NCBI GenBank assembly: GCA_009801085.1
Contig: VNWV01000031.1
Location: 1-64,000, forward strand
Source: Lasiodiplodia sp. COLG20
Taxonomy: Eukaryota > Ascomycota > Dothideomycetes > Botryosphaeriales > Botryosphaeriaceae
Length of the DNA: 64,000 nt
Direction of reading: 5' to 3'
Position numbers and translations under genes: made by a program
The notes under the pieces: generated by a model
Told to the model about the DNA's origin: nothing
The model's input: only the letters and a program-made list of their open reading frames with translations
Database searches by the model: none
Shown: one piece after another, positions 3,389-40,400 of the stretch
Layout of the letters: the number at the start of each line of letters is the position of its first letter
Position numbering within the stretch: position 1 is the first letter of the stretch

Positions 3389-5245
3389 TCAACGCTTCGA
3401 AACATGTCTGATGTTTGCCCAGATTCGAGAGATGCCTTTTGATTTTGGCTGGTCTTGACATTCGTCCTTGACACTCGTTACTCCATGAGTTATCGAGGCT
3501 CCTTGGACCAGGTCTGTGATAGAGTGAGAGGGGGACGTCTGCGCAGGCTCCGCAGGGTCGAACGAGGCAGAAACGTCAGCCACATAGCAGGTTCCGCAGT
3601 CATCCACCACACGGTGTACATCGACTTGGATGTAGTCGTTGCCTAACGACATCCGCACTCCGGGGGATTGCGGATTGAAAGAGGCAGCAAGCTTTGACAA
3701 GACCGCTTTATCTAAGTCGTCGTGCAGTGATTGCTGCCTCCGATTCCTAGCAAGTTTCAATAAGCGCGGCCTAATCAAGCCTTCGGTCCACTCAAGAACA
3801 TCGACAGCGATAGGTAGTTGGTCTGACGAACCGAACAAGACGGCGAACTTTGTACCTCCCCCAGGATGGTTACGTAAAGGCGACTTGTGATCGTCCACTG
3901 GGGTCTTCCGCTCAAATACAAGGACTGCAGCTAGCTTTTGACCCCAGGGGCAGTGAACGAAGATTTCATTGCCAAGATCCGGTCTGAGTGCGCCGAAGGT
4001 CATCTCTTTCTCATATCCTTGCTGCAAGGGGGGTGTCTGGCGTAGTTGCAGTATGTCACTAGCGTGCGAATTTACGGGACTCCACAGCTCGATATTCTGC
4101 CGCACGTATATCGAGCAATCCACCGTACTATAACTCTGTTCTCCGACAAATTCGTGCGCTCTGATGCGCACGTACTGCTCTGTACCCATAGACATCGGTA
4201 CATCACGCCCTCTGACGGGAATGTTCTGCTTTGAACTCTGAGACTTCAGTACATCATGCGTCGCGCTCGTCCTTCTCAGGTAGATGCCAATGTACTCTGC
4301 GCGACCTGGGTATGTGGAACAGTTGATTAATCCAATATGAACATTCGCATGATAATGTTCCAGGCGTACAGTGATTTGCAATCCTTTGTTGGTCATGGAG
4401 AACGCTGGACGAAATCTTTTACGGAGTGGAACGAAGTTTCCAGAGTCTTCGAAGCATGCAGGCGACTTTGCAAGCAGACCGTACGGATATCGCGGATTGG
4501 TTGCGGCGTCCTTTTCCCTCCACGCAAACAGAGTCTCGTCGTCGGTGTTTCGCATGATCTCTTCTTGCAACCTGATGAAAGCCTTGCTCCCTTCTCCGTA
4601 GATCATCGGCATGTTGACGTCGAATAGGCCCATAAGGCAATAAGCCTGGTCTTCCAGCCTCGTTGTCTGTCGCTTCGCCGCCCACGACATCCTCTTAGCC
4701 ACGCTCACAGAACTCAAGTGCGTTGTGCCGGTAAGCACATCCACATCGATCCCTGTCGCCCGAGAAAGAACCCCAGTCAAGGTTGATTTCGCGCCGAGGA
4801 ACATCCAGCCTTGCGAGAAGAATTCCATGTGTGCGGGGGCAACCAGCTCTTGCAGCGTCCATCCTCTGCAAAACCACTCGCTCTGGGCGAACAAAGCATC
4901 TTGCTCTGGATCGATCCCGTCAGGCACGTCGAACAGGTAGGCGTAGCAGACGGCGGCCTGGGTATACCATCTGTACATGGAGTTGATGGCCTCGGAAAGC
5001 TCAGAGCTGCTGCTTTTGTCGATGCAACAGGTATCCACCCAGACGTAGCCAAAGCCCTCGCGAGACGCTTGCAGACAAGTCTCTTCAAGCTTCTTGTAGC
5101 CGAATTTCTCTGACGCCTGACCGCTCGTGATGTCTTCGAAGAGGACTTCGCCATCCTGCCACCTGTGGGAGAGGATGGCGTAGGGTGGGATAGCTGAGTC
5201 CACAAATGTTTCAAGTTGAAAAGTAGAGCAATTGAGAAGGCGCAT
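3389..5245 (-). CDS. HET-domain protein with DUF8212-type extension (HET gene 2)
   Basis: Single-exon gene of 618 residues. The N-terminus MRLLNCSTFQLE...IPPYAILSHRW is the canonical start of the HET-E/HET-D/HET-R type of HET protein, so the start is secure. Blocks in order: HET motif 1 (residues about 20-40), GFGYVWVDTCCIDKSSS near 65-80, a linker ending EWFCRGWTLQELVAP, and RMSWAAKRQTTRLEDQAYC...YGEGSKAFIRLQEEI, which is the conserved region after the HET domain (DUF8212-type). The C-terminal half is unrecognised. Unlike HET-E itself it has no NACHT or WD repeats; such truncated relatives are common in Pezizomycotina. Predicted role is signalling or cell death in non-self recognition (family inference). 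Intact. Confidence 0.9.
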   Translation of the reverse strand: MRLLNCSTFQLETFVDSAIPPYAILSHRWQDGEVLFEDITSGQASEKFGYKKLEETCLQASREGFGYVWVDTCCIDKSSSSELSEAINSMYRWYTQAAVCYAYLFDVPDGIDPEQDALFAQSEWFCRGWTLQELVAPAHMEFFSQGWMFLGAKSTLTGVLSRATGIDVDVLTGTTHLSSVSVAKRMSWAAKRQTTRLEDQAYCLMGLFDVNMPMIYGEGSKAFIRLQEEIMRNTDDETLFAWREKDAATNPRYPYGLLAKSPACFEDSGNFVPLRKRFRPAFSMTNKGLQITVRLEHYHANVHIGLINCSTYPGRAEYIGIYLRRTSATHDVLKSQSSKQNIPVRGRDVPMSMGTEQYVRIRAHEFVGEQSYSTVDCSIYVRQNIELWSPVNSHASDILQLRQTPPLQQGYEKEMTFGALRPDLGNEIFVHCPWGQKLAAVLVFERKTPVDDHKSPLRNHPGGGTKFAVLFGSSDQLPIAVDVLEWTEGLIRPRLLKLARNRRQQSLHDDLDKAVLSKLAASFNPQSPGVRMSLGNDYIQVDVHRVVDDCGTCYVADVSASFDPAEPAQTSPSHSITDLVQGASITHGVTSVKDECQDQPKSKGISRIWANIRHVSKR

Positions 5246-5705: not shown

Positions 5706-8333
5706 TTATACAAGGACTCCAACATTCTTTCGAGGAAAATAAAGGTCCGACCGTCTTGTGTGAGCCCCAAATTCGTCGTCAGCAATTGATTCTGTTGGAA
5801 CCCAAACTGCAAATACTTGATAAGCAGGTTTGCCGAGCTTCTTGCTCTCGGAATCGATGCGAACTGCTTCATACAACAGATTTGATGGGCTACCTTTGAG
5901 TCCTCCAATAGATACCGTGATCGTTTCCCTTTTCCCAGACGATATCTCCTCTATATCCACATCCCCACGACAGAAGCCTACCCTAGGCGGTCGTCGCTCA
6001 TCGTTGGCGATTGAGGAAAATATCAATTGCACATTCTTCTTCTCACAGTACTCCAATTCCAACTCCAGGGCAGCAGTTACCACGTTGTAGACGGCATCAT
6101 AAATGTGTTCCGGCTCATGTGAGTTGATCAAAGAGTTCAGTTCCTGGGAATATGCCTCGTCAAAAGCTTTCCTCTTTCGATGGTCGCAGAGAAACTTCAT
6201 GTAGTCTTGGATCGGAAGGATTCTGCGAAGCCATAACACTACGGCACTATTTCTCTGCAGGTTCTGCATGTCCATCGGCCTCATGGACCATTGATGCACA
6301 ACTCCTTCGAAACCATACTGAACTGCTTTGGTCCTTTTATCGGTCCAGTGAGACATAATTCGGTGAAGGAGCTTAATTACCATGCGTGCGATAGTGTCGT
6401 TGGTTAGATTGCCAGAAGGCTCTTTCTCGTACGAAAATGCCGAATGAAGGCCATTCACCAGCATTTTATAGTCCATGGCACCTCTTGAAAGAGAGGGATA
6501 GGTTGTATCATGGATAATTATAGGGACAGAACTTCGAAACCCAGGGGAGACTGGGACTTCGATGCCCTCGTCGGCCACGGCCCGATACAGGTCCATATGA
6601 CAGCTTGGATAAATTGCCGAGAGGTATTCCAACGGTTTCCAAAGGGCAGATCCGAGTGACTCGGCATCAAACAGGCCTTGTGGAGCGGTGACAGCTAATG
6701 TCATCCCATGATTGCGTTGAAGCTGGCGGAGGGCATCTTGCATCAGTCCTGGAACGCTCATAGACTTGTATTCATCAGGTACAACGTAATCGGGACACGA
6801 AGTCCAGACAGCTATGATGTAATCCTGTGGTTTTGTTGCCTCGCGACCAACTCGATTGCTGAGGCCCGTCCCATTGAACAATTTCGATAGCCGGGTAAGG
6901 AAATCCACGGTGGATTCCCTTTTGGAAATAACCAAACGACTTTCCTGTTGCTTGAACATTTGCCTCCCTAGCAGGAATTGGTATAATTTCTCGAATGTTT
7001 GAGGTGCGTTTCCGGTGTGATTGTATGAGAATAAATCTATAATCATTGTGTGATGTGCTGTTATCAAGTAATGGCGGACCGCCGCTAGGGAACCAGCCTG
7101 CGAGAACCCCCTCTTCATGAGCATTTCAAACATTCGTCTCTGGAATGGAGGAAGATTTTTCCAATTTATATCGGGATTATGCAATCTGACACAGGGGTTC
7201 TTGAGCTTTGAAGTCCAGACGCACCGAACCCGCTGCGAATGCATAAGTTCATGATACGTCCACATCCGTCTGTTCCATGAGAATGCTCCTGAGCTCAAAC
7301 ATTCATGCGGCCGTCTTAGGTATTCTAAAGCTTGCTCCCCGTATTTTCTGCCATGATCGAGTCTCGAGAGCCGATTGATCTCCTCAACCGCCTTCGTGAT
7401 ACAGCCACAGAGGCTTCCTGGAAGGAGAGCTACAACATCCAGCTTGGAAAATATCGAGGGCATATCGGCGAGTGTTTTCCGGATTGTGTCTTCTTCTTGT
7501 GGGATGCAAAGTTGGTCCATCCAGACGGGCTTCTCTGCCGACAGCTCCGCAAGACGGTCCACGACATCGGAGACGACCCACTCCGTACCCAACTCGAGCT
7601 GGACGTGCTCTGCAGCCTGAAGAGTATGTCCGACGGGCCTCTTTTGCCGGTCAAATTCTCCCCAGGCGTAAGAAATAGCCGTGGCGTTGTAGCGATGCAG
7701 CGGGACGTCGACCAGGTCGACAACCAGGTGGGGGTTCGTCGGAAACGAGCATGCGCTGTCACAGCAGATCTTGAGCTTGGCGGCTCGAACGTGCTTCCGC
7801 ATGTAAGGTGCAAGGAATGATTCTCCCCAGCTTTGAAGCATGGACAAGTAGGCTCGCACCAAGGATCCCTCCCAGCTTTGAAACATTGACAAGTGGATTT
7901 TTACCAAGTAGATTCTCACCAAGGATTCTCTAAGCATGCACGCAATGGTCTCCACCAAGGATTCTCCAAGCATGTTCGCAATGGTCTCCACCAAGTATTC
8001 TGCAAGCATGTTCGCAATGGTCTCCACCAAGGATTCTCCAAGCATGTAGGTAATGGTCTCCACCAAGGATTCCACCCAGCTTTGAAGCATGGGCAAGTAG
8101 GTTCGTACCAAGTAGGTTCCCACTAGGGATGTTTCCAAGCTTTCAAGCACAGACGAGCAGGTTCGTACGAAGTAGGTGTCCACCAAGGATTCCTCCCAGC
8201 TTCGAAGCATGGACAAGTGGGTTTGTAGCAAGTAGGTTTCCACCAAGGATCTTTCCCAGCGAAGAAGCATGCACCAGCAAATTCTCACTGATAATGGTCC
8301 CAAGCTAAGAAGCATGAACAAATAAGTACCCAT
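5706..8333 (-). CDS. HET-domain protein with tandem-repeat N-terminus (HET gene 3)
   Basis: 875-codon uninterrupted frame. Residues from about 178 look like an ordinary HET protein: MRKHVRAAK..., DLVDVPLHRYNATAISYAWGE, then SAEKPVWMDQLCIPQEED, then WNRRMWTYHELM. Residues 7-177 are about ten imperfect repeats, nearly all starting Met-Leu and containing Glu-Ser-Leu-Val-Glu-Thr. Unit lengths are 20, 20, 20, 15, 12, 12, 12, 17 and 15 residues, flanked by shorter ones. The units are amphipathic and could form helices. The start is uncertain: ATG at 8333 includes the repeats, while ATG at 7802 (residue 178) would give a standard-length HET protein of 698 residues and leave the repeats in the 5' leader. 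The repeats keep frame across units of different length, which favours translation. The C-terminal half is large and unrecognised. Confidence 0.8.
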   Translation of the reverse strand: MGTYLFMLLSLGPLSVRICWCMLLRWERSLVETYLLQTHLSMLRSWEESLVDTYFVRTCSSVLESLETSLVGTYLVRTYLPMLQSWVESLVETITYMLGESLVETIANMLAEYLVETIANMLGESLVETIACMLRESLVRIYLVKIHLSMFQSWEGSLVRAYLSMLQSWGESFLAPYMRKHVRAAKLKICCDSACSFPTNPHLVVDLVDVPLHRYNATAISYAWGEFDRQKRPVGHTLQAAEHVQLELGTEWVVSDVVDRLAELSAEKPVWMDQLCIPQEEDTIRKTLADMPSIFSKLDVVALLPGSLCGCITKAVEEINRLSRLDHGRKYGEQALEYLRRPHECLSSGAFSWNRRMWTYHELMHSQRVRCVWTSKLKNPCVRLHNPDINWKNLPPFQRRMFEMLMKRGFSQAGSLAAVRHYLITAHHTMIIDLFSYNHTGNAPQTFEKLYQFLLGRQMFKQQESRLVISKRESTVDFLTRLSKLFNGTGLSNRVGREATKPQDYIIAVWTSCPDYVVPDEYKSMSVPGLMQDALRQLQRNHGMTLAVTAPQGLFDAESLGSALWKPLEYLSAIYPSCHMDLYRAVADEGIEVPVSPGFRSSVPIIIHDTTYPSLSRGAMDYKMLVNGLHSAFSYEKEPSGNLTNDTIARMVIKLLHRIMSHWTDKRTKAVQYGFEGVVHQWSMRPMDMQNLQRNSAVVLWLRRILPIQDYMKFLCDHRKRKAFDEAYSQELNSLINSHEPEHIYDAVYNVVTAALELELEYCEKKNVQLIFSSIANDERRPPRVGFCRGDVDIEEISSGKRETITVSIGGLKGSPSNLLYEAVRIDSESKKLGKPAYQVFAVWVPTESIADDEFGAHTRRSDLYFPRKNVGVLV
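7821..8327 (-). repeat. tandem repeat array in the 5' part of HET gene 3
   Basis: Two interleaved period classes. A 36-nt unit occurs about four times near 7917-8060 (plus-strand core CCACCAAGGATTCTCCAAGC). A unit of about 60 nt lies on both sides (8061-8320 and about 7821-7916) and shares the CACCAAGGAT and AAGCATG cores. All units are multiples of 3 nt or differ by multiples of 3, so the minus-strand frame stays open throughout. Confidence 0.85.
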
Positions 8334-8910: not shown

Positions 8911-9750
8911 TTATGCGTACGTCGGCGCACCAGCGCTCTCACCATCCGCACCGCTCTCCGTCTTCTGCGCACCAGTAGCACCATACGACGGCTCCGAAGA
9001 CTCGCCCTCCGTGCTCTGAGCAGTAGTAGTGCTCTTCTGCGAACCAGTAGCGCCGCTGCCGTACGACGGCTCCGACGTCTCGCCCTCAGTGCTGCTCTCA
9101 GTCGTCTTCTCCTCCTCGGCCGGCTTGTCCTCAGTGGTGGTGGTGCTCTTCTCCTCATCACCGCCCGTCACGACATCCGCCGTGGCGTCCAGATCGACCG
9201 GCGGCAGGGCGAAAGGGGGGTTGATCGGGCCGGCCGAGGTGTCGACGGGCGACGCGCCGTAGCTGGGCTCCGCGCCAGCCGCGGGGGTGGTGGTGGTGGT
9301 GGTGTCGGTGTTCTTCTGCGTGCTGTCCGCGCCATCGGTCTCGGCCTCCGTCTCGTCGTCATCGCCGGCCTCGGAGTCGGAGTCAGAGTCCGAGTCAGAC
9401 TCAGACTCCGCGCCGTAGTCGGGCTCGTCGCTGTCGGAGTCGGAGGGAGAGGACGACGCGCTGTCGACGTCGGACGAGGACGATGCGCTGTCAACGTCGG
9501 ACGAAGAGGCGCCGTAGGAAGGCTCGTCCGCGCCGGTGGAAGCGGGCTTGGTGGCAGGGGCGGTGCCGTAGTTCTGGCGGCGGGTGAGACCGGGGTCGGT
9601 GACGGGCAGGCCGGAGACGGGGCTCAGGTCGATCTTGAGGTCCAGGAGGTCCTTGGTGCCGCGGGCAGCGAGGTTGCCGGCGTTGAGGGGAGCCGCCTGG
9701 GAGGTGGCGGTGAGGAAGAGGAAGAGCTTGATGAGGGCCTGTTTCTGCAT
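8911..9750 (-). CDS. secreted Ser/Asp/Thr-rich protein with EP[SD]YG repeats
   Basis: 279 residues. Start at 9750 gives a signal peptide (MQKQALIKLFLFLTATSQAA). A pro-segment follows, ending in a dibasic Arg-Arg (57-58), a likely Kex2 site; the mature chain would begin Gln-Asn-Tyr-Gly. The motif EP[SD]YG occurs five times, near residues 76, 109, 161, 227 and 253, with degenerate copies QNYG (59-62) and APTYA (275-279). Between them lie Ser-Asp, Glu and poly-Thr runs, so the protein is acidic and probably heavily O-glycosylated. All seven tyrosines of the mature part sit in these motifs. No catalytic domain, no clear GPI signal, almost no Cys. Function unknown; cell-wall or secreted repetitive protein by inference. 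Low-complexity coding makes the exact frame important, but the signal peptide plus repeats support this one. Confidence 0.75.
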   Translation of the reverse strand: MQKQALIKLFLFLTATSQAAPLNAGNLAARGTKDLLDLKIDLSPVSGLPVTDPGLTRRQNYGTAPATKPASTGADEPSYGASSSDVDSASSSSDVDSASSSPSDSDSDEPDYGAESESDSDSDSDSEAGDDDETEAETDGADSTQKNTDTTTTTTPAAGAEPSYGASPVDTSAGPINPPFALPPVDLDATADVVTGGDEEKSTTTTEDKPAEEEKTTESSTEGETSEPSYGSGATGSQKSTTTAQSTEGESSEPSYGATGAQKTESGADGESAGAPTYA

Positions 9751-11647: not shown

Positions 11648-12364
11648 TCACGACGAACCCCCCGTCGTCTCCGGCAGCGGCGCAGGCGCGCGCTTACTCA
11701 CATCCGGCTTGCCCTCCTTCCCCTCCGTCGGCTCGGGCGCGGGCGCCGGGGCACGCTTGCTCACGTTGCCCCCCTCCGTTGGCTGCGGCTCTGGGGCAGC
11801 CTCACGCTTGGTCACTCTCGGCGGGGCGTTTGACGGCGCCGAGGGCTGCGGCGCAGCATCACGCTTGCTCACCTTCGGCGGGGCGTCCGACGGCTTTGGA
11901 TTGCTCGGGTCCGAGGGCTGCGGCGCCGGGGTGCGCTTGCTCACGTTGCCGCCGCCCTCTGTCGGCATAGGATCAGCCTCGCGCTTGCTGTTGCCCGGCT
12001 GGTTCTGGTCCGTCGGCTGCGGCGCGGCTTCGCGCTTGGTCACGTCGCCGCCTGCTCCATCCGTCGGCATCGGGTCAGCCGCGCGTTTGCTGTTTTCCGG
12101 GTTGGTGGGTTTGGTGTTGGCTTCAAGGGCGGCGGCGGCGGCGCGGGCGGTGATCTGGGGCATGGGCGCCGCCTCGCGTTTGCTGTGGCCCGGCTCTTTG
12201 GGTTCGGTGGCGACTTCGGCGGCGGCAGCGCGGGGGTCGAGGGCAGCAGGGGCGGCGACGGCGAGAGCGGTGGGCTCGGGGGAGGGGATGGGGGCGGGTG
12301 CGGGGGCGGCGAGGGTGGTCAGGCCGAGGCAGCAGAGGAGGAGGAGGGAGGATAGGCAGCGCAT
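11648..12364 (-). CDS. Kex2-processed repeat peptide precursor (KEP-like)
   Basis: 238 residues, no intron. The ATG at 12364 is chosen because it starts a clear signal peptide (MRCLSSLLLLCCLGLTTLA); the frame stays open upstream without one. After a pro-region come nine Lys-Arg sites (62-63, 93-94, 110-111, 127-128, 143-144, 167-168, 186-187, 203-204, 224-225), each preceded by Ser or Thr. They would release nine peptides of 29, 15, 15, 14, 22, 17, 15, 19 and 13 residues. Each starts x-[AP]-[AD]-P-x-P (EAAPMP, EADPMP, DAAPQP), and several end in Gly/Asn-rich cores such as TDGAGGDVT, TEGGGNVS and TEGGNVS. The architecture matches fungal Kex2-processed repeat proteins, the class that includes alpha-pheromone and dikaritin precursors. 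There is no Trp/Cys pheromone core and no Tyr, so neither known type fits. Product and receptor unknown. Confidence 0.85.
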   Translation of the reverse strand: MRCLSSLLLLCCLGLTTLAAPAPAPIPSPEPTALAVAAPAALDPRAAAAEVATEPKEPGHSKREAAPMPQITARAAAAALEANTKPTNPENSKRAADPMPTDGAGGDVTKREAAPQPTDQNQPGNSKREADPMPTEGGGNVSKRTPAPQPSDPSNPKPSDAPPKVSKRDAAPQPSAPSNAPPRVTKREAAPEPQPTEGGNVSKRAPAPAPEPTEGKEGKPDVSKRAPAPLPETTGGSS

Positions 12365-13503
12365 GGTTGATTGGTTGCCTTTGTTGTTGGTGATGTTGGA
12401 GGAGGTGTGGGTGTAAGTGATTGTTTGGTTTGTATGCAGATATATATCCCTGTCTTTGGTGGTGACGGGGCGAAGAAGGTGGGAGAAAAGCGAGCTGAAC
12501 TCCACAGAAGTGGTTAAAGAGAGACTGCAATGAGATGGATGCCTTGAGCTGAACGGCAACCCACCGTTTTCTTTTATATACACCATCTTCTGATCAGGCC
12601 CACAGTGCCTCACGGCATCAGCCGCAATCGTGCCGGGGTTATCGCGAGAATGAAAAGCTTAAGGTTCGAGCCTCTGCCCGTTGCGATTTTAAGCTCAAAC
12701 GGCAGATTGATTTTTGCCCCAATCGCCTCCCACACCCCTGCCACTCGAGTCAAGACTTCAACGCCTCACGTTCCTTGAAAAGACGTTGTTACAGAGCTGA
12801 ACGTCCGTGTTACCTCGTGCCCAGTGCAACAAAGTCAGTTCTGCCTCACGATCTTCGGTAACAAGTCCGCAAGCAGTTCAGCCCAGGCGGCCACCTGACA
12901 GAATGAAATTACACTCTTCGGTGTCTCACAAGGCGCAGCAGCTCGTTCAGCTACGTGGGCGGTCAAAAATAGCAACCGTATGTAGGTGCAGACTCCCATG
13001 CTGAATCAGAAGGTCAGGCGTAGCACTTGATTTGCTACAGAGGTCTTTTAAAATATCTAGCGCCGCGAATTTTAAGGCGAATACAATCAAGCTATTTTAC
13101 AACTCCCAATGACGACCAACGTGTGGCTGGTTCTGATGGACGTCTGCAAGCAAACCGGCCATGCACAAAATAGAAAGTCATGTTTCCAAGGCGACGAAGA
13201 ATAGTAAACAGTAGTCTATCTGGTCCAGTACGTGATATCATAAACGCTCAAACATAGCACACTAATGCCAGATGCCGGCATCTGCCAAACCCCCGCCGCA
13301 TCGGCTGTCGCTCTGGCGACTTGAGAACAAAAAAGAAAAAAAGGACCGCAAAGCCCACGCGTCGTGGGTGTAAGCAAAGAAGTTCGGTCAGCCTAGTGGA
13401 TCCCATCAGCCGAACACATGGCTGAAGGCTCCAACGCCAGAATCCTCAACCAAAAACAAAAGACATTCCGCCAACCAATCAACCTTCCCCCACCTGCTCA
13501 TTT
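12365..13503. other. intergenic region
   Basis: Promoter of the peptide-precursor gene (about 12365-12650, with the TATA element above), then the downstream region of the methyltransferase-GFA gene. Around 13.05 kb it is AT-rich. No gene recognised. Confidence 0.5.
12571..12582 (-). promoter_or_regulatory. TATA box of the peptide-precursor gene
   Basis: On the minus strand the sequence reads TATATAAAAG, a near-consensus TATA element about 207 nt upstream of the ATG at 12364. Transcription would start near 12.54 kb and give a leader of roughly 180 nt. Clear TATA boxes in fungi tend to mark regulated, high-amplitude genes (inference). Confidence 0.5.
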
Positions 13504-15003
13504 TCATTCCTCCCACCTCTCCCCACCCGCCTGAAACCTCCACCTCTCCGCACCGTCGTCCGGCACCCGCTCCCACGGCGGTTTCTCATCCAGGAAAATC
13601 CGCATCGCAATCCCAAAGTCGTCCGGCAGTCCCTCATCCACGGTACTCAGCGCGAGCCAGACGACGCCCTCCAATGGGCCATCTGGCTGCGTCCTGTACC
13701 GCATCCACACGGGCGCGCCGCATCTTTCGCAAAACGCCCGTACCGCCTTCCGCGAGAAAGTCGGGGCCAGCCTCAAAACACGCTCCGAGTCCTCCAGCCA
13801 CGTGACGTCCTTCACGTTGAACGCAACGAACCCATTGCCCCCCATGCCCCCCATCTTCTGACAAGTGCGGCAGTGGCAGAAGCTCGAGTCGTTGGGTTTC
13901 GCGGTGCAGACGGTGTAGCGGACGTCGCCGCAGCGGCAGGAGCCGGCGACGGGCGGCTTGCGGGCGGTCGTCAGCCAGACGCCGTCGACTTCCTTGACGC
14001 CGTGCGGCACGTCCGACCTTTCCGCCTCGAGCATCCACTCCTCATAAAACAACCGCCGCGCCTCCTCCCACTTGGGCCCGCGGTTGCGGCCGAAGCCCCT
14101 GCCGGACTCGCTGCCGATCATCTTCGCGAACTGCGCTTCCATCTCGCGGGCGTCGGTCGGGAGGTAGCGCTCGCCGTAGCCCTCCTGGGTGATGAGCTCG
14201 TTGCCGACAACCTGCAGCCCTGCGGCGCCGGAGAGGAGGTCGGGGAGGGCGAGTTCGTCGAGGACCCAGGTGCGGTGGTAGGGCACGGCGACGCCCATGC
14301 GGCGGCCGACGCGCTCGAGGACGATGCCGGCGAGCTGGTTCTGCGGGTGCGGCACGTCGAGGGCGAGCAGGCCGCCGGGCTTGAGGAAGGGCAGCCAGCT
14401 GCGGATGGCGGCTTCGGGGTCCGGCAGCAGCACGAGGGCCGAGGCCATGGTGATGAGGTCGAAGCTGCCCTTCTCGGCGGCTAGGGCGTCGAGCGAGTCC
14501 AGGTCGGTGACGCTGTGCTCGAACAGGCGCACGTGCTTCCAGCGGTCGGGCTGCAGTGGTTCCTTCACGTCGTCGTCATGATCGGCGTTGTTGTTGTCAT
14601 CGTCGACGTTGACGAGCAAATCTTCATCTGCCACCTTCTTGTTCTTCTTTTGCTGATGATGACGCCGGACGGGCGCCGCGCCGCTCTCTAGCTTCCGGCG
14701 CGCTTGCGCTAGCATACCACCACTAACATCGACGCCGGTGACGGAGCCCGTCGGCCCCACGCGCTCGGCCGCGAGGAATGTCAGCAGCCCGGTGCCACAG
14801 GCCAGATCGAGCACCTTGGCGCCGGGCTCCAGCGGCAGCCGGTCGACAAAGGCCTGCGCAAACTGCGGGTGCCAGGAGTCGTCGTAGCTGGCCGCGCGCG
14901 CGTCGTACAGCCGCTTGGCCGCCGCCGTCTGCGTCTCCACGGCCAGCGTGCCCTCCATGATGGCCGCGACGCGCAGGCGCGCGACTTCGGTTGCGCACGT
15001 CAT
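13504..15003 (-). CDS. fusion of class I methyltransferase and GFA/CENP-V domain
   Basis: 499 residues in one exon. Residues about 30-270 form a UbiE/Methyltransf-type SAM-dependent methyltransferase: motif I LDLACGTG (65-72), acidic loop end GVDVSGGML (90-98), motif FDLITMASALVLLPDP (181-196), then FLKPGGLLALDVP. Residues about 352-480 form a GFA-type (glutathione-dependent formaldehyde-activating / CENP-V fold) zinc domain with the full Cys set: C356, C358, C376, C378, C381, C425, C428. Residues about 112-150 are a charged low-complexity insert (Lys, then Asp/Asn) inside the methyltransferase fold. The two domains are usually separate proteins; I see no stop or splice signal between them. 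Substrates cannot be inferred. ATG at 14958 (MEGTLAVET) is an alternative start. Confidence 0.85.
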   Translation of the reverse strand: MTCATEVARLRVAAIMEGTLAVETQTAAAKRLYDARAASYDDSWHPQFAQAFVDRLPLEPGAKVLDLACGTGLLTFLAAERVGPTGSVTGVDVSGGMLAQARRKLESGAAPVRRHHQQKKNKKVADEDLLVNVDDDNNNADHDDDVKEPLQPDRWKHVRLFEHSVTDLDSLDALAAEKGSFDLITMASALVLLPDPEAAIRSWLPFLKPGGLLALDVPHPQNQLAGIVLERVGRRMGVAVPYHRTWVLDELALPDLLSGAAGLQVVGNELITQEGYGERYLPTDAREMEAQFAKMIGSESGRGFGRNRGPKWEEARRLFYEEWMLEAERSDVPHGVKEVDGVWLTTARKPPVAGSCRCGDVRYTVCTAKPNDSSFCHCRTCQKMGGMGGNGFVAFNVKDVTWLEDSERVLRLAPTFSRKAVRAFCERCGAPVWMRYRTQPDGPLEGVVWLALSTVDEGLPDDFGIAMRIFLDEKPPWERVPDDGAERWRFQAGGERWEE

Positions 15004-28746: not shown

Positions 28747-30854
28747 ATGGAGACTTCCGAACTCAAACTTCAGTCTCAGTTCCGTCTAAAGCACAAGATT
28801 TCCTCAAAAGTACCACGTGTTGTCGGAGGTCATAGTGATAGTCAGCTTCCGAAGGTTTGTGAGTTTCTCCAGTTTGGGCTGCACGATACTAAAGCGCGGT
28901 TTGAATGCAGGGACTCTATTGTTCTCGACATGACCCAGAAGAAATTATGAGCGCTCTCGAGAACGATTGGGAACGAGCATATTCGCTGTTGACCTCTACT
29001 CAAGACGACAACTCAGGTCATACAGGATGTGAGAGTTGTTCCGTCTGTTGGGTGGTAAATATGCTTATCCACACCGAACCAAAGACACCAACCCTTTTCA
29101 CCGAACCTTTGCATTATCACGACCCTTTGAAACTACAAGGTGTCGAACAGATAATTAAAAAGGATCAACCATTTTACCGCCCGGGATTCCCTGATACAAG
29201 TGTCGTGGTGGAGCTCTGCCCTCCATTCAACCTTGAGTTGGACTTTAGGAGCTGGGCACGGTCAGGCTTTCTCAAATCCCGTCCAGACCCGGCTATATTC
29301 CGACGCTGGATCAAGGATTGCTGCGAGAACCACGAGAATCCCGTCACAGCAGGAAGTGATAAAGCCAAGGCTGTTCCTAAGATGCAATTCATCGACGTGC
29401 ATACCAGAGAGATTATATCCACAACATCAGGTGTGCGCTATGCAGCATTATCATATGTTTGGGGTAATGAGGAATATCCTAAAAGAACAGAAACCCAACA
29501 GCTCGACTATCCAGCACCTAAATCAATTGAGGATACCGTAGAACTCGTCAAGAACCTCGATATACCCTACCTATGGGTCGATTACTACTGCATATCACAG
29601 AGCAACATCCACGAGAAACATTTTCAGATCAGCCAAATGCATCGGATCTACCAGCAAGCGCAGGTAACGATTATTGTCGCAGCTGGAGGTGGCATTTATG
29701 ACGGAGTACCTGGTGTTCGTTGTACATTCCGGAAGGCACAGCCACATTTCGAGATCGGGAACCGTATTTTTGCAGCCATGCTCCCTCATCCCATGATCTC
29801 TATCGAAAACAGTACATGGTATTCAAGGGGTTGGACATACCAGGAAGCAGTGCTATCAACAAGAAGGCTAGTCTTCACCGATTCGCAAGTATACTTCGAA
29901 TGCAACCATGAAGGGGACGCCGAATGTATCGAGGAGCCGATCAGAAGCCTTGCAGCGTCGGACGCGTGCGCAGATTTTTGGCAACTCACGCCGCGAGTCT
30001 TTAGTCGCGGGCTCTCTACGCCTTGGAAGCAAAGAGGTGTGTTTCACATCTGGGGCCACATTCGTAATGTGCTCCAGCGCCGCTTTACCTTCGAGGCAGA
30101 CAGGTTGAACGCCTTGAAAGGGATTTTTGGTGCTGTGGTCGAAGCCGGCGCTCTCCAAGGAGAGATCCGCGGCATTCCTGTGTACACCACGATCCCGTTT
30201 GGTCCAGACTATCCACTGCCAGAGCTCACCTGGACGGAAGGGTTTCTGACCGGTCTCCTCTGGCATTTCGAATCACCAGCATCTAGGCAGAGGCTGTTTC
30301 CCAGCTGGTCGTGGGCAGGATGGAGCGGTGCTTTGCGCACGTTTCCTTATGACCGTCTCACGGGCCGAACAGACCCTTCCGTATACGTCTACTTTCAGAC
30401 CGAGGATGGCACTCAGCTTTGCGCAGATGAAACCCAAAGACTCTACACCGGAGGCACCGACAGTGACATTCTGTCCAGTATATCGTTCCTGATACTGGAC
30501 ATCTTCGTCATCAAATGCAGATTTTCCGCGGGATGGTTCGGCACCGCCTTGGTCCCGTATGTTCTTGTTGATGGACGTCAAGAGTTCGTTGGGGCGACCG
30601 AGATGGTGTTGACCCTCGACATTTCTCAGGACCCGTATATGTTCTTGCGGCTGAGAAATTGCTCATGGGACGGTCTTGTCATCGAACAGGAAAAAGGAGA
30701 TACATACGTCATGGTCGTGCAAGACTGCGGGGACCGTTGCGAAAGAATCGGCATGTTCTTGATGAAGAAGCACTTCGCTGACCCCGGTATTTGCGTCTAC
30801 CCGGATGGGGTCAGGATTTCTCTGACGGAACGGCGTACTATAAAGCTTGGATAG
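28747..30854 (+). CDS. HET-domain protein (HET gene 4)
   Basis: Two exons proposed: 28747-28854 and 28911-30854 (56-nt intron, branch-like TACTAA, acceptor TGCAG), 683 residues. The large exon is certain; the first exon is inferred from in-frame splicing. HET blocks: YAALSYVWGNEEY, LDIPYLWVDYYCISQ, YSRGWTYQEAVLSTRRLVF, then WSWAGWSG typical of the post-HET region. The last residues (LTERRTIKLG) look like a normal HET C-terminus. If the first exon is wrong, translation may start at Met near 28950. Intact frame; role in non-self recognition inferred from family. Confidence 0.85.
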
Positions 30855-31802: not shown

Positions 31803-34800
31803 TCAGGCTTTAGGCTTTGAGACCATAATCCTACTTGAGCCCGTTACCGTCCTGGTCTGTCTACGGATATTCCACCCAGTTATGCGAGTTGCCTCCACAG
31901 CCCGATCTCGCCAGCTCAATTCTGATGACGGTACTCCATAGCGGCGTTTCAGACCGGCTACCCAGTCATCGATCTTCATCTCCGCTTGCCCAACAAGTAC
32001 CTTTTGGTGCTTTATCCGATCTACTTCCGACTCTTTCCGCTTGGGGATTGATAGGAAATCGTGATTGAATCCGCACACATGCCGTCCGAGATTGTTTTTC
32101 AGGAGCAGCTGGTAACAGTCTTTCTCAAAATGCATGTGCGGACAGTTTCTGCAGATGAATATTTGTTTCTTTAGGCTGATTGAGCCATTCCATGTCCATC
32201 CGCAGCCGCCAGCGCAGGTGATCGAAAGATTGCGCGCACGATCTGCGTCTGGAACGTTGACAATCAAGGACCACGCAGCCCGTGCGTTACAGTCATCCTC
32301 CAGCAGAACAAGGGCCTCTGCAAGCGTAAAGTATCCGTTCCAGTCGTTATCATCCGTGTCGTCATTCAGGAGGCGGAAAGCTGTTGAAAGATGGTTTTTT
32401 ACGGCGGAAACAGCTTTCTGGTGCTGGCCCATGACGTAGTAGGCGCGGGATAGTAGTAGCGACAGGTAGTTGACTTCATAGAGGTGCTTTTCGTCGATTT
32501 GTGTTTTGTATTGCCTTAGCTTGTCGACATATGGCGCCAATGATTGAGTGTTTTTGCTGTTGAGAATGATCTCAAGATATGCCAATCCAAGTCGCTCGGC
32601 AACAAGACTAAGGGAGTGGAAGATCGTTGAAGGGCTGTCGTTCCATGCCCTGGCTTCTTGGAGTTGGTCTATGCTCTTCTCCCAAGCCTTCAAAGCGTCT
32701 TCCAGTTCGCCGCATTGGTAAAGTGCTTTTCCATAGTGGTAACGGAGAAGGACGCAATCCATGGGAGACTTGCATGCCTTGATGCCGTCTTCATACGTCT
32801 CCAAGACGAGTCTCTGGCGATTCCGAGCGGCAAGGATGAATTTTTCATGGAACTCGTGGGACTGAGCCTTCGAGTTCATGAGATATGATAGGATACTGTC
32901 GCCATCAAATTTCCGCTTCATGGCCAAAACCTCGAAGGCTGCATCGAGTTGGTCCTGTTTCATGATCCACTCCCATGCCTTGTCAAGGGGAAAATCCTGA
33001 TCCGGAAACTCATCCCAAAGATAGTTGCATGCCGTGAACACTTCCTTTGTACTATTAGTACCATCACATAACAGCCAGAATCGGTCCAGCTCTTGTTCCC
33101 AAGTATCGAGGTCGGACTTCCTGAAAGTCGAACTTTGTACGTTATGTCGTATCTTAAGAAGCTCATCAAGAGCCTGCCTTGTACGACCCTTCTTCTCGAG
33201 CGCATGAGAGAGACATAGTGACGCTTTGATGTGTAGAGGATCTCGCATCTTAACAAGCTCACACCGTTGTGCTGCCTCTTCGAACGCTTTCTTGTGACCA
33301 CTGCCCATGAAAGTTTCAGCGAGTCGAATGTCATGTGTTGTGTTGCGTCGTGACTGCGCCTCTGGGATTGCGAGCAGAGATAAAGCCCATTTCTCAGCCT
33401 TTTCAATTAGTTCTGGAGAAAGAGACTTCGAACTCCAACCTCCTTGAATGCCCTCCATCAAGTCGTGTAGTTCTTTATCCAATGCAGAAGGACCGGGTCG
33501 TCCTGGTTTGCTCTTTGAGTTATATATCTCTCAGCTGTCAGTTATTGATTGACAAATGGTTTGATTTGCGAACTGACCTTGCGGAATATCTTGAGCAAGA
33601 ACATCAGAGCAGATATGGCTGGCCATCGGCTTTCCTGGAGCCATTGAGATGCTATAACTCTTGACGGAGCGTTAAGGATCTCATGCAACTCTATTACGGG
33701 CTGTTCGCTCGGTTCTGATTTCGCACCACCTTGAATGCGCTTTTGGTCAAGCTTTTCAGCATCAATATCATGCTCTTTGGCCGAAGTTCTTTGTACACTT
33801 TCCATGGTCTCCTTCTCCAAGGCTCCACTTCCGGGAACACCTTTTGGAATGCTCTGTTGCGCGATGGCTGAGTAGCTTTTGGATTCCTTTTCTTTCCTGC
33901 GAAATCCACGTCTCAAATCTTCATCATCCAGCACTTCTAGTGCCGTCTGCATCTTTGTCGGCCATTCCGTCCATAGAAAGTCGTTGACATCGCCTTCCAG
34001 CATCCATATCTCGACTACCTGCTCATCCATAAAGACAGGATACAATGCTTCCCCTAACCCCTCTTTCGTTTCCCTTGAGAGATTCTCAAGCTGGTCCTTT
34101 AAACCAGCCAAGTGCTTGGGTAACCATATGGAGGTATACTCGAACAGGTAATTTGATTCGGCGCGCTCGAAGAGCTCCTTCTGCCCCATAGTTCGGAGGA
34201 AGAAGTGAAGTGTGTGCAACTTTCCTTGTCCAGAATTTAAATGGATGATAGGTTTAGATGCTGTGCGTGTCTCGACCAGATACTTGAGAAATCCCGTGTT
34301 CATATCGTCGTTTCGTTCCTTGCTGCGAAGGTACTCCATGAATCGCGCGGGAATGGCCACACTGTCCTCATGGATATCATGACGGTCCTTGCGTCGACCC
34401 TTGTCCAAACTGGTGTACAGCGATCCAGTTTGATTCTTCTCAAGGAATTTCGGAAGCGTGGATGAAAAGATCCGTCCATTTTCAACTGATACAAGCCGTG
34501 CAAACTTTTCTTTTATCTTGGCATCGATAGAAGTCTTGAACCTGTTTCCGAGTCGGAGTGAAAGGTAGGCATTGAGTTGTTGAACTGTTGGCCAAGTATG
34601 CCAATGAGCCATACAGGCAATGAGTTCGTTGAGGATCTCGATATCGTCGCTTCCGAGATCTTCATTTAACATCTCCAGCTTTCGCCGCGTGATCATTTCC
34701 GGACCATTTCGTACTTCTCGCTGAAGAAGGTATAAATCCGACAGCCCATTGTCGCTTGACCGTCGAACCTCGTACAACCATGCCTCTAGATCATGATAGT

Positions 34801-36410
34801 TTCCGTTGAAATTGGATTCCAGGTCTCGTAGTATGACCCAAATTATCCTGTGACCTTCGCTTCTACTGTCCCAGAGCTCATGTGATTCATCAAGGCGACT
34901 CTTGATGAATATCTTTGCGTCCGAGCGCTGGTTTTCTTCGAAGAAGCTGGCGCTGGTCAGTTTGTGAATAATTGAATTTGGGTCCTCGAAGTCTGCATTC
35001 CCAGAGAGAAGCACTCGTATCTGTATCGATCGCTTGGAAGACGAATTCACGTTCCCTATGATCGCCTTGATAACATTTTGATCTTGTTGACTTTTGAGGT
35101 TTCCGTACCCGTCAAGAACCAAGAATACGACCGTTTGTGGCTTTTGCGTATCCTTCTGGGCGGATTTGAAGAAAGGCATAACAAGCTTGTTCCATATGTC
35201 CACGCCTTTGGATTGTGCTGCCGCAGGACTCTTTTGCAGGATCTTCATGACAAAATCTTGAAAAGCCGCATTGTTATCGGCCAATTGCCATATGAGACTT
35301 TTCAAAGCCTCGTCGAGAGCGATGCGCTCGGCCGCGTCCGATTTCGTCATTTTCTCTTTCAAGCCTAACTCTTTTTCGATCTGTTTTTCCGGAAGAAAAT
35401 ACCACACGAGTGAGGTCCGGGTTTTTTGTTGCCTGTTATCCTGCCGCTCTTGCAGCGATCGAATGATCTGAGAGCAGAGATGGCTCTTGCCATGACCGCT
35501 TGGAGCTTTGATAAGAAGAACTGGATTGCGGGAGTGGTTTTCGATGTCGATCCAAGATTGAACCTCCGGTAACTCAAAGAGCCAGTCACCCATTCCAGGA
35601 AGCGATTCGCTCTTGAGTGATTCCTGCATTTTGGTCCAGGACTCCTCCTTTCCGCTGATTTGGAAGTATCTCCTCAGTTTCTCCGAATTGACTTTGCGGA
35701 TCTTGCTATCGTTGGTGTAAATGTCCGAGACGCGAAGAGCAGCGACATTGTTATTCAGCTCTTGTTGGCTTATGTCATTGATTTCCTGAAGCCTGGATGC
35801 AATTCCGCCGTCCCATCCGATTGCTGCTTTATAAAGGTTTTTGACGACACCGGTAGGGGATTTGGAGTCTTGAGCCACCTTGGTGTAGATGGTACACAAG
35901 CGCAATGCTTCGACGAATATGCGTTTAGTCGTCGCCCGTAACCGCGGATCCAGCTCAACACCCTGCTCGTACAATTTAAAGTAGCCTTCCACCCGGCCAA
36001 GAGATGTTTCAACACTCTTCAGTTGCTCCAGCACGTTCTTTGGGATGAAGTTGGCCCGGTACTGATGCACGGTATCTCCCAAAGCGGAGAGGGCCGTGAT
36101 TACCATGGATGCTGTTGGAAAAACCTTGCAAGCGAGTCAGCGGCAACCCCAATGCTGCATGAAGCCACGCACTCACCGACGATGCCGCCTCAGCTACGAA
36201 CTTGGCGACCTGGAAGACGCTATCCGCTGATTTCTTCAGAAGCTCTTCTCGGTCCGACAGAGCGAACTCAGCACGCATCTCGTCTAGATTTTGGGAGGTA
36301 AGATGAGCTGCGTTGAGGCTTCTCTTCGTCAATCTTTCGTATTCGCCTTTGACCTCCTCCCAGAGCTCGTCGAGTTCCTTGTCTTCTGATTTGCCTGCAG
36401 CGCCCGACAT
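31803..36410 (-). CDS. STAND/NLR protein: Goodbye-like, P-loop NTPase, TPR, zinc-like C-terminus
   Basis: Three exons (36410-36177, 36124-33578, 33512-31803), 1496 residues, exactly in frame. Introns are 52 nt (36125-36176) and 65 nt (33513-33577), each with a CTGAC branch point. Residues 1-170 resemble the fungal Goodbye N-terminal domain (start MSGAAGKSEDKELDELW; VFPTASMVITALSALGDTV; SLGRVEGYFKLYEQGVELDP). P-loop APSGHGKS near 285-292; Walker-B-like VVFLVLDGYGN near 410-420; sensor-like IQIRVLLSGN after it. From about 928, RPGPSALDKELHDL leads into helical TPR-like repeats. A Cys/His set follows at C1360, C1364, C1381, C1384, C1393, C1407, H1411. STAND proteins are signal-transducing switches in fungal immunity and cell death. 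Adjacent to a second NLR on the same strand. Confidence 0.85.
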
Positions 36411-37427
36411 GCTGACTCTCAGGAAAGTAAGAATGGAGAGAAATTGACTTATCCGTACCTCGTCAGAAGGTGGCAGATAGTGAAGATATATCTCAACGAG
36501 ACACGACCACAGGCTATCTGCCAGACTGACGTGCAAGCGATCGTCAACGCCCGCTTAACTTCTTTTCGTTTGCGCTTCTTTTCTTTTTCGAACTCGCCCC
36601 TCTGACACGTATTGCCAATATGCACGATGGAAGTAGCACGCTAGGCCTTGCACTCCAGGGCCAGAAGAACGCACCAATCCTCACTGTGTATAGCGCCGAT
36701 CCATGCGATGTACAGCTCGACACATCTCTACCAAACTGCTTTTTCTCGCGTAATGAGACTGAAACCCACATTGGAGCTCAGTGCGCAGCTCTTCGTCCGG
36801 AGGTATCCGAGATCTCTGCCGATCTTTTGCGGCGGGTGGAGCCGATGCAGGGGAGAGCCGAAAACGCAACCCTCTCAAGCAGACAACGACACCTCACGCC
36901 AACGCAAAAGGGGGGTGTGCAACCGCACTACCTTCCTAGAAGAGGGAGCAGCCAACGTGTCCGCCAGATGAGCGTGCTATACACGCGGGTACATCCGTTG
37001 TGAACCCCAGGGTACAAGGATTTTAGGTAGGACCCTGAGCGGTGAGAACTCGGCACGGGACGAAGCGCTGCAAGGGCCAGGAGGGCCTTAAGTGGCAAGT
37101 ACCGCACGATTAGAAATCCCACACGGAAACCCAGAGAACACGGTACCACGGACCCTCCTAACAGGCAGTAGTTAGCCCGCATGGGAAAACGGGCCTATAA
37201 GGACGTGAGACTACAGACAAGTTTACGTATCACCAATTGTGCCTGACAAGGGCTTTGGGACAAATATAGATAGAATTGGTAAAGGTCATGTCGGGATAGC
37301 ATTTCCATCCACCCGAGGGAAAAAAGTAAAAGTGGTCTCAGGGAATAGATATCGAAGTACTGAAGATAAGAGAACATGGAAGTCGTCCTCCCCTGAAAGA
37401 TTGGTCCAGTCACCACCGGGAAATCCT
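36411..37427. other. intergenic region between the two NLR genes
   Basis: Promoter of the first NLR (36.4-36.6 kb) and 3' flank of the second. The part 37.0-37.24 kb has a different texture, with TGTGAACCCC... and CCTATAAGG motifs that recall an LTR end, but no partner copy or coding part is present. Short open frames are uninformative. Confidence 0.45.
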
Positions 37428-40400
37428 TCACCCCATCATTCTTAAATGCTCGGCAAGCTTAAAATTCCCACGCCGACTTGCTATCTGAATTGCAGTGTGT
37501 CCTCTTCGATCTGTCGCATAAGCATCAACGCCTATATCAACAAGGAAGCATGCCATATCCGAGTCATTTTTGGCCGCAGCGGCCCGAAGGGCATACTGCA
37601 AGGCGATATCGTTCGGTGGAAAATAGTGTCGTGCGAAGGAAAGCTTCATAAAGTCCACCCCACCATTGATCGTCATCAATTGATTGATCAGGACCATAGA
37701 TTCGCACACAGCGAACGGTGAGCTCATGCCTTTTTGGTTTAGCAGCGATTGAAATTTAACCAAAGCTTGCTCCTTCTCGTCCATCGCCGCAGCTACCAAA
37801 TCATCCGCTGTGACTGAGATGTCACGATGTAAGGACAAGAACAGGTCGAGAGTTTGTGGGTCTGCAAGTTTGGCCATAACGTCGAGTGGAGCATGCTTCA
37901 TGACGAGGTCGGTGTCATACTTGAGAAGGCCGCTCAGAATCCTTTTTCCACCAACATCAGCCTCTTTCGCATTTCTGAACCCTTGTTCAATGATCCAATC
38001 TTTCTCAAATCTGAACCCTGGCTCAATGGTCCAATCTTTCTCGAACTTGGTGCGATGTATCAAGCATTGGAATGGTCCCGGCTCTTCGTAAATTGTTGCC
38101 AAAGCCTCAAAGGCTTTCCTGAAGTTCTCCGCGTTGGCCTCTAAGGAGAGTAAAGTGCATATGCAAGTTGCGGTATCCTCTTTTCGCCAAAGTAGACCAA
38201 GCTTTTGGAACACTTTTGGAGTTATCGTTAATTCAGAGATCTTAGAAAGGAGGAAGCGGCAAATCTCAGTGTCTCGGCTCACCACTGCAACGTCTTCGAA
38301 TCTCTGCTGCGTGAACTTAAGCTCCGGCCTATGGAAGTATAGATGCCGTACAAGGATGAAAAGGGCGGACGAGTTTTGGCGTGCAGCATTAACCATACGG
38401 CGCCTCATTGAGGAGTTTGTCTTCTGGGCGAAGGCTATTATATCCTCTAACAGGTGGTCCAGATCCTTTGATTGTCCTTCGGGAACGTCGCGGGGAATAT
38501 ATTTGAGTATGCGAGGTATGACCTCTATGGGAAACGTGAAACCATTTGAAAGTAGAAGCCTGAGCCCAGTGATGTTGCTGCGCAGTGCTGCCGCTTCAAC
38601 ACACTCATCCTTTTGACTTTGGCTTAGCCGTAGTGTGCACGTTTGGAGAGTTCTCTTCAAAACAGATGAATTCTCCAGCGCTGCAAAGAGGCTCAAAGGG
38701 TGATTCAGAGTGATGCTATTCGCCCAGTTCCCGTAAAGTTCGACTTTCCCCTCCGAAAAGTCCAGATAAGAGCCACGGCCAAAGTAAAAAGTGTTGGAAA
38801 TGTTCTTAGCCCATTCAAGATAGGGGAGGCCAATATCGCCACTAACGTCAATGAACCGTTGCAAGCTATCGTCTAGGTTACCGGGTTTGAGAAGACTTGC
38901 AAATTCCAGTTTTTCAAGATGGAACAGAAGGTACTGGGTAGCGTAGTATAACCATACTTTCGAGAGATCTTTTCTGTCTACACTGGAGATGTTCCAGGTG
39001 TTGAGGCACGCATAACAAGCCTCGAAATGGATTTCCGCGGGTGAGTATTCGGGACGACTTTCAAGGTACTCCCGTCCTGACAAATGGGCAAACCGGAATA
39101 TTCTTGAAACGTTGTCGTATACCACGAAGTTAGAGCAGATGTCGAGAATTTGGTCTTTGGATATTGGCTCTTTTGGTCCATTGATCGTGATGGCGGTCCT
39201 GAGCAGCGATTCTCCCAGACGCCACTGAGCACACAAGAGCCATGAAATTACCCTTTTTGCCACAAGCTTGGCAGTATCCGATAGGGATTGGATCGAATCA
39301 TAGATAGTGTTATAGGAGTCCTCGAGTGTTTTTGGGAGTTTCCCGATCTCTCTTCTGATGTCTTCCGCGAGTTTGAATCGGCGACTGTCGCAGATATTCT
39401 GGATTTGCAAACTGACCCAACGGAACCTATACCAAAGTTGGTCAAATTGGTCTTCAACTGTAGCTCCATCAGGATACTCACATGCCATGGGCTCCGCGGG
39501 TAAGCTGTTCTTGTATGTGCTTTTGCAAGTCCGCCGAGACTTTTCCACCAAGCAATCTACCTCCTTTCATAGCATCGTCCAATTCATGCCGAATGAATGT
39601 TTCGATGTCGTCGGAGTTGTCTGATGCGTCAATGTAGATGTTGTGAGATTTCTTCAATCTTTGCTTGATATCTCCATCATCACGGCTGGAGACAAACACT
39701 TTTACCAGGCTCGAAGACTCTTGAATGATTCTGTCCAATGCCTCTAGTAATTGATGACGTCGAGCTGGGTCACACTCATCAAGTGCGTCAATCACAATAA
39801 TTGCTGGATCTTTCTCGAGAAGTTCGATGATCAAATCAGTGCAATCCTGGAGGCAAAGCTTCGAAGGATCTAGTCCATCGTCTTCAGCTTCTTGCATCCG
39901 TTCAAGAAAGGCCTTTGCAACCGGAGCTCGAATCGGCTGGTTAGCCGTTCTAGAGCAGAGCTGTTTGAGGATGCATCGCATAACTTCATCGGGATCAGAC
40001 CGTTCTGGTTCGGCCGGGTCTCTGTTGCAGTAGAAAAAGGCGCAAAGTTCCGTTTGTAGAGCTCCGGTGTTGCCACGGATTAAAGTGTCGATCATAAGGG
40101 ACCTACTGTACTTAGCATGCAGTTAAATTAAAAAAATAGGGAGACCTACACTAGATACGTTTTACCCGAACCAGCTACGGATATGTCAGCTACGAGGGGT
40201 GTCAATCGAATGAGTTGTATATACGTACGGATCCCATGGAGCCAGAGGATAGATGAACTGCTTGACTTTCTCCACTCGGTAAAGCGAGGTTTGCTGAGAA
40301 GCCATGCCCCGGATCCATCCATTCGCGTTTTCGTAATGAACCTGTGGTGATCTGCACAACGCACTTGCGAAAGCCACCGTAGTAGCTCCTGTCTCTTATC

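Follow-up and report, generated by a model that had tools for sequence, protein, structure and literature searches.

A predicted Kex2-processed repeat protein with Ste13-like dipeptide heads in Lasiodiplodia, probable precursor of a family of small secreted peptides

The precursor gene and its surroundings

The window analysed here spans positions 1 to 64,000 of contig C25 in a Lasiodiplodia genome of 43.5 Mb and 88 contigs. It carries a gene whose product divides into a predicted signal peptide, a leader, eight units each closed by Lys-Arg, and a short C-terminal tail (Table 1). The N-terminus is hydrophobic when read by eye, and in the structure model of the protein residues 1-10 form the sole block of high confidence (pLDDT 82); beyond the signal helix the model contains only one short helix (mean pLDDT 51.6, pTM 0.16), although these low values say little about disorder, as just two sequences entered the model's alignment. 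Cleavage of the signal peptide after ...TTLA would leave a leader that starts with 11 x-Ala/x-Pro dipeptides, followed by Leu-Asp. Past residue 20, Ala and Pro together make up 39% of the protein and Cys, Trp, Tyr and Phe are entirely missing; a preliminary description of this DNA had already pointed out the lack of a Trp/Cys pheromone core and of Tyr, to which Phe can now be added. A Pfam search of the precursor matched no family, a reading by eye found no GPI-like hydrophobic C-terminus, and there is no close paralogue in the same genome, the next match having an E-value of 0.34.

Table 1. Parts of the precursor gene, with positions in the window; heads and cores are those of the proposed processing
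Feature	Positions	Strand	Remarks
Whole CDS	11648..12364	minus	238 aa + stop, single exon as read; homologue P0002 alignable along entire length
Predicted signal peptide, residues 1 to ~20, MRCLSSLLLLCCLGLTTLAA	12305..12364	minus	hydrophobic N-terminus; helix 3-16
Leader following the signal peptide	12182..12304	minus	basis: dipeptide listing and identity to P0002
Unit 1: head EAAPMP, core QITARAAAAALEANTKPTNPENS, 23 aa, atypical	12089..12175	minus	
Unit 2: head AADPMP, core TDGAGGDVT	12038..12082	minus	
Unit 3: head EAAPQP, core TDQNQPGNS	11987..12031	minus	without counterpart in P0002
Unit 4: head EADPMP, core TEGGGNVS	11939..11980	minus	
Unit 5: head TPAPQP, core SDPSNPKPSDAPPKVS	11867..11932	minus	P0002 head: 4 residues fewer
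Unit 6: head DAAPQP, core SAPSNAPPRVT	11810..11860	minus	a simpler parse also takes off SA
Unit 7: head EAAPEPQP, core TEGGNVS	11759..11803	minus	
Unit 8: head APAPAPEP, core TEGKEGKPDVS	11696..11752	minus	P0002 head: 2 residues fewer
C-terminal tail: head APAPLP, core ETTGGSS	11651..11689	minus	same sequence in P0002
TATA-like stretch ATATATAT, candidate promoter element	12440..12447	minus	~75 bases upstream of ATG; by eye

The window region is rich in genes of the self/non-self recognition type, a position that alone gives no functional link. Five of the nine ORFs scanned code for HET domains (545-2128, 3389-5245, 28905-30854, 46101-48305 and 62385-63965), with ORF 5706-8333 lying outside the scan. 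NLR-like pieces occupy 33542-39551 on the minus strand, where an ORF with an NPHP3_N nucleotide-binding domain has a same-strand neighbour with ankyrin and weak winged-helix matches. The neighbouring minus-strand ORF 8911-9750 encodes 279 aa with a signal-like N-terminus, an acidic Ser/Asp-rich composition and a repeated EPSYG motif, and has no Pfam match. Another minus-strand ORF, 13504-15003, encodes in one frame both a methyltransferase and a glutathione-dependent formaldehyde-activating (GFA) domain.

Lys-Arg sites, dipeptide heads and cores

The preliminary description had recognised nine Lys-Arg sites with Ser or Thr ahead of each, a common head, x-[AP]-[AD]-P-x-P, and five cores opening with Thr-[Asp/Glu]. 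These observations hold throughout: Ser or Thr precedes 9/9 sites in the minus-strand ORF 11648-12364, the head formula fits 9/9 heads, and the five cores read as they had been quoted. The count of nine related peptides stands only in part, since the nine sites yield a leader, eight Lys-Arg-bounded fragments and a C-terminal tail; the relatedness extends over units 2-8, whereas the first fragment differs and the core of the tail opens with Glu.

The 218 aa past residue 20 were shuffled 100,000 times at constant composition; the number of Lys-Arg pairs never reached nine, the maximum being six in a single shuffle. When the Lys-Arg pairs were held fixed, none of 30,000 shuffles placed Ser or Thr ahead of all nine, none gave Ala or Pro at all 27 of the head positions 2, 4 and 6, and none attained the observed contrast between even and odd positions; as the units are presumably old duplicates, these unit counts do not represent independent events. 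Among the 510 stop-to-stop segments of at least 60 aa in the window, the precursor is the only one to contain two or more KR-(x[AP])3 sites. Across the genome, the DNA pattern for Lys-Arg plus such a head occurs at 24 places, nine of them inside the precursor gene, against 17 for a reversed control. The anatomy of a multi-peptide precursor with a signal-like N-terminus is confirmed as real and well formed.

Protein searches drew on about 5.8 billion proteins, scoring in each case the roughly 8000 candidates that shared most words with the query. The sole relative returned was P0002, which is identical at 77% of the full length and at 89% of the aligned columns. It was also the only match, at E-values up to 10, for the repeat region, among 7999 scored candidates from which low-complexity words may have crowded out relatives. 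No Lasiodiplodia match to the precursor appeared among the approximately 8000 scored candidates, and the database does contain Lasiodiplodia Ste2 proteins. Counted from the shared Met, P0002 has eight Lys-Arg sites, 8/8 with Ser or Thr ahead; unit 3 is missing, and across nine indels in all the frame is kept to an identical APAPLPETTGGSS end. Identity differs by class of residue, amounting to 43/46 in the heads, 56/61 in residues 1-61 (signal peptide and leader) and 72/88 in the cores. The expectation that sites and frame should persist in relatives is therefore borne out in one homologue, with eight sites and one unit fewer, and conservation rests on this single comparison. Loss of the Lys-Arg sites or of the frame, and uniform drift without conserved cores, had been named in advance as evidence against the precursor; sites and frame are kept in P0002, but the cores do drift more than the heads. 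Taken together, the survival of sites and frame and the kinship of the cores of units 2-8 support the secreted Kex2-type multi-peptide precursor that had been proposed.

The units do not look like products of recent DNA duplication. Tandem repeats in the DNA of the gene amount to four short stretches with periods of 3 to 9 and no array over the units, and same-residue codons are shared in register at 0.51 compared to 0.44 for permuted codons, with 210/5000 permutations reaching the observed value. The lack of a tandem array and a codon sharing only slightly above the permuted level suggest that the repeat pattern is old and has been retained at the protein level.

The heads show a marked alternation: in the precursor, Ala or Pro occupies 27/27 of positions 2, 4 and 6 after Lys-Arg and 11/27 of positions 1, 3 and 5. 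In P0002 this register is weaker (even 22/24, odd 12/24, a contrast reached by 81/30,000 shuffles) and one head consists of a single dipeptide. Given the number of Ala and Pro residues in each six-residue head, the product chance that all nine precursor heads fall in register is 1.6e-6, and that for the six distinct in-register heads of P0002 is 0.001, both values assuming an independence of heads that units presumably derived by duplication do not have. The end of this ladder of dipeptides directly abuts Ser or Thr in 7/9 units of the precursor and 6/8 of P0002 (13/17 overall), the exceptions being unit 1 and the tail. Between the two proteins the heads differ by two indels, of 4 residues in unit 5 and 2 residues in unit 8, both of whole dipeptides, while the cores differ by six indels of 1 or 2 residues each; there are only two head indels, and six-base slippage in GC-rich repeats coding for Ala-Pro could produce such steps with no selection involved. 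Such alternation is more in keeping with a processing signal than with a motif of the peptides. In alpha-pheromone precursors, Lys-Arg is followed by XA or XP dipeptides that are taken off by STE13 (PMC6339444). Thus, the shared head, previously taken to be part of the released peptides, is most likely an x-Ala/x-Pro dipeptide ladder of the Ste13 type that is absent from the final product.

With the heads removed, units 2-8 leave seven hydrophilic cores of 7, 8, 9, 9, 11, 11 and 16 aa, which have Ser or Thr at both ends and net charges of -2 to +1. These cores are mutually alike, with 0/2000 internal shuffles matching them irrespective of whether the last residue is included. In unit 6, trimming is taken to halt ahead of SA: this pair is followed by Pro, and a bond of that kind would resist these dipeptidyl enzymes. 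The pair Gly-Gln is absent from the cores of the precursor and present in one core of P0002, TDQKEGQPGVS.

Proposed maturation and relation to known precursors

Kex2 is expected to have a C-terminal membrane span, and a hydropathy scan finds one in both of the Kex2-like proprotein convertase genes, recognised by a P_proprotein domain, in this genome (G000:C88:913101-913361 and G000:C23:1028326-1028586). There are likewise two genes with a DPPIV_N domain: the copy on C88 resembles Ste13/DapB in having a membrane span near its N-terminus, and no span was seen in the open piece of the second, which lacks the N-terminus. These genes provide candidates for two of the three enzymes in the route proposed below, and we infer that their products act on the precursor.

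In what we regard as the likely mechanism, the signal peptide would direct the precursor into the secretory pathway, where Kex2 would cleave after each of the nine Lys-Arg sites and Kex1 would then take the Lys-Arg off the C-terminus of each fragment. A membrane dipeptidyl aminopeptidase of the Ste13/DapB type would strip the x-Ala/x-Pro head pairwise until Ser/Thr-x is reached. From units 2-8, these presumed cleavages would release some seven hydrophilic peptides, related to one another, 7-16 residues long and of the form [ST][DEA]...[ST].

The earlier view that the protein matches no known peptide class is not supported, as its sequence fits a described class, the Kex2-processed repeat proteins (KEPs) that bear a STE13 signature (PMC6339444). 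KEPs are defined in that work by a secretion signal, the absence of a transmembrane domain, and cleavage at KR or RR into at least four fragments, at least three of them similar and covering at least 15% of the protein. In the precursor a secretion signal is predicted by eye and from the structure model, the nine Lys-Arg sites delimit ten fragments including leader and tail, and XA or XP directly follows Lys-Arg as in the STE13 signature. In our emulation of the repeat filter, which is not the authors' script, three similar fragments cover 18% of the length on either background, a narrow pass. P0002 passes on the general background (three fragments including the leader, 24%) and fails on its own composition (two fragments, 12%); this failure and the narrow pass indicate that the filter presupposes more uniform cores than those seen here. 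The precursor is therefore known by kind, and one close relative of it has been found.

STE13-type precursors with non-pheromone cores are known from Basidiomycota and Glomeromycotina, and share with the present one the repeated Lys-Arg, the x-A/x-P ladder and a signal peptide, which is predicted here (PMC6339444; PMC9769878); peptides of such KEPs have been detected (PMC9769878). The host here is instead an ascomycete, and the cores are hydrophilic and unequal (7-16 aa and one of 23) and devoid of Trp, which several basidiomycete KEP cores carry (PMC9769878). No sequence homologue among the STE13-type KEPs emerged from the approximately 8000 word-sharing candidates scored per protein search. 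A survey has catalogued 7878 KEPs, of which 2560 stand alone (PMC7329392), and in Ascomycota the STE13 signature is generally restricted to alpha pheromones (PMC6339444). A clear ascomycete case, in a genome that also has Ste2 and a second precursor of this kind, would offer a direct test of whether pheromone-like peptides serve filamentous ascomycetes in roles other than mating. The precursor further suggests that surveys built on near-identical repeats can miss those with unequal cores. The Rep1/Hum3-like repeat peptides of Ustilago are, like those predicted here, secreted repeats cut at Lys-Arg. Rep1 lacks the STE13 signature (PMC6339444), in contrast to the precursor, the cores of which are short and hydrophilic.

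Signal, pheromone and other readings of the precursor

We consider it likely that the protein is the prepropeptide of a family of small secreted peptides, matured through the alpha-pheromone route. As for its role, our best guess is a secreted non-mating signal, exchanged among hyphae or directed at other organisms, as opposed to a mating pheromone for Ste2. STE13-type KEPs have been proposed as hormones with non-sexual roles or as effectors (PMC6339444), and it is from this analogy alone that we derive the signalling role that we favour; knockouts of six KEPs in Coprinopsis had no apparent phenotype (PMC9769878). A bolder version, which strikes us as distinctly speculative, is that the pheromone maturation line has been reused in a Botryosphaeriaceae lineage for a second, non-mating signal, with at least seven Ser/Thr-capped peptides acting in hyphal communication through a receptor other than Ste2.

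Signalling through Ste2 itself, with the precursor being the species' own divergent alpha-type mating pheromone, appears improbable. It would agree with the design of the protein, which resembles ascomycete alpha-pheromone precursors of the MFalpha1/ppg type in the order of its parts and in its maturation signals, including KR-EA/DA, and with the restriction of the STE13 signature noted above. The genome also has a Ste2 gene (279/280 model positions matched, no stop), four core patterns, within the matches set out below, located no canonical alpha-pheromone gene, and the Gly-Gln found in a P0002 core is an alpha-pheromone feature. However, the described Dothideomycete alpha pheromones have either two Cys or PYG[LM]P[IV]G (PMC6339444), and 0/17 units of both species contain Cys, Trp or Tyr. 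Lacking Cys and Tyr, the units of the precursor and P0002 can have neither two Cys nor PYGxPxG. Moreover, the precursor (P0001) has no Gly-Gln, and the cores of units 2-8 are of several lengths and sequences, unlike the near-identical repeats of pheromone precursors. A better pheromone candidate is a STE13-type precursor on C36 with two Cys per core.

This second precursor (L053, G000:C36:1-6000) lies at about 1095-1450 on the minus strand and has cores of the form CVPDDPTxC in units reading TKR-EAVP-CVPDDPTSC..., KR-EPEPQP-CVPDDPTSC... and KR-EPEPEPVPVPVP-CVPDDPTPC..., with a likely intron (by eye) after MKFSTATALLF, ahead of the units. With two Cys in each core, it is a candidate for the mating pheromone of the species. 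The Cys residues of alpha pheromones are spaced as C-x3-G-x2-C, a pattern partly taken from cores quoted in PMC6339444. Of the core patterns sought in the genome, WC-x3-G-[QE]-x-C occurs at 13 places (10 in the reversed control), with no KR-repeat frame among the 10 of these 13 that were translated, and C-x2-PGQ-x-C at 3 (control 2), none of them in a KR-repeat frame. PGQ[GPAR]C occurs at 181 places (control 73), with no close clusters discernible by eye among the 100 matches listed, and PYGxPxG at 1 (control 2). These four patterns are blind to introns and to other cores, and a canonical mating pheromone gene may still exist in the genome. The available text of PMC8905617 mentions no pheromones, and that of PMC10569646 has nothing on pheromones of Botryosphaeriaceae. 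The Ste2 protein is 84-85% identical to those of L. hormozganensis and L. theobromae, 67-69% to those of two Diplodia species and 96% to one further record.

The peptides might alternatively be aimed at the host plant or at competing microbes and not at the fungus itself, which we regard as possible, though rather unlikely. Botryosphaeriaceae include phytopathogens and endophytes (PMC8905617), and KEP peptides have been suggested as effectors or as agents of biotic interaction (PMC6339444; PMC9769878). Against this, comparison of eight plant peptide hormones with both proteins gave no significant likeness. Typical membrane-active peptides also differ from the cores found here, which are short and hydrophilic and carry little net charge. 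Among the hormones, the best likeness was CEP1-like, KPTNPENS, reached by 45/3000 shuffles (64/3000 for P0002), which fails given eight tests per protein; that to PSY1 was reached by 2142/3000 shuffles of the precursor and 432/3000 of P0002.

An uncut Pro/Ala-rich secreted protein of the wall or matrix, with incidental Lys-Arg pairs, would account for the composition, the fold-less model and the Ser and Thr residues able to carry sugars. We find this reading hard to credit, as the number and register of the Lys-Arg sites are far above chance and the sites stay while lengths change, and the protein has neither a GPI-type hydrophobic C-terminus nor, past residue 20, any Cys, nor a Pfam domain. 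Least of all do we expect a RiPP precursor, the cores of which would be cyclised or otherwise modified by UstYa-type enzymes. A signal peptide followed by KR-separated repeats is indeed common to the KEP design and to precursors of the dikaritin/ustiloxin type, such as UstA and PhomA, and the genome has 22 UstYa matches. But in a best-candidate search that ignored introns 0/22 of these lay on C25, the contig of the window, and no aromatic residue (Phe, Trp or Tyr) follows residue 20. The precursor thus shows neither UstYa (DUF3328) genes nearby nor the core Tyr of dikaritin-type precursors. Furthermore, the cited precursors of toxic cyclic peptides and epichloecyclins are without the STE13 signature (PMC6339444).

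KR-DA heads do occur in a UstYa-linked precursor elsewhere in the genome, on C34. This counts in favour of the RiPP reading and means that the STE13 signature extends, in this genome, beyond peptides that resemble pheromones. This Kex2 repeat precursor (L054, G000:C34:8000-17900), at 1585-2307 on the minus strand, has ten APAYVWASSAKA-type repeats, one of which reads WAST, with KR-DA or KR-DV heads, and three UstYa matches follow on the contig at distances of about 3.3 to 7.4 kb. Its repeats fit the conserved motif YVW[G/A][G/S] (PMC6339444), and the locus is probably a dikaritin-type cluster.
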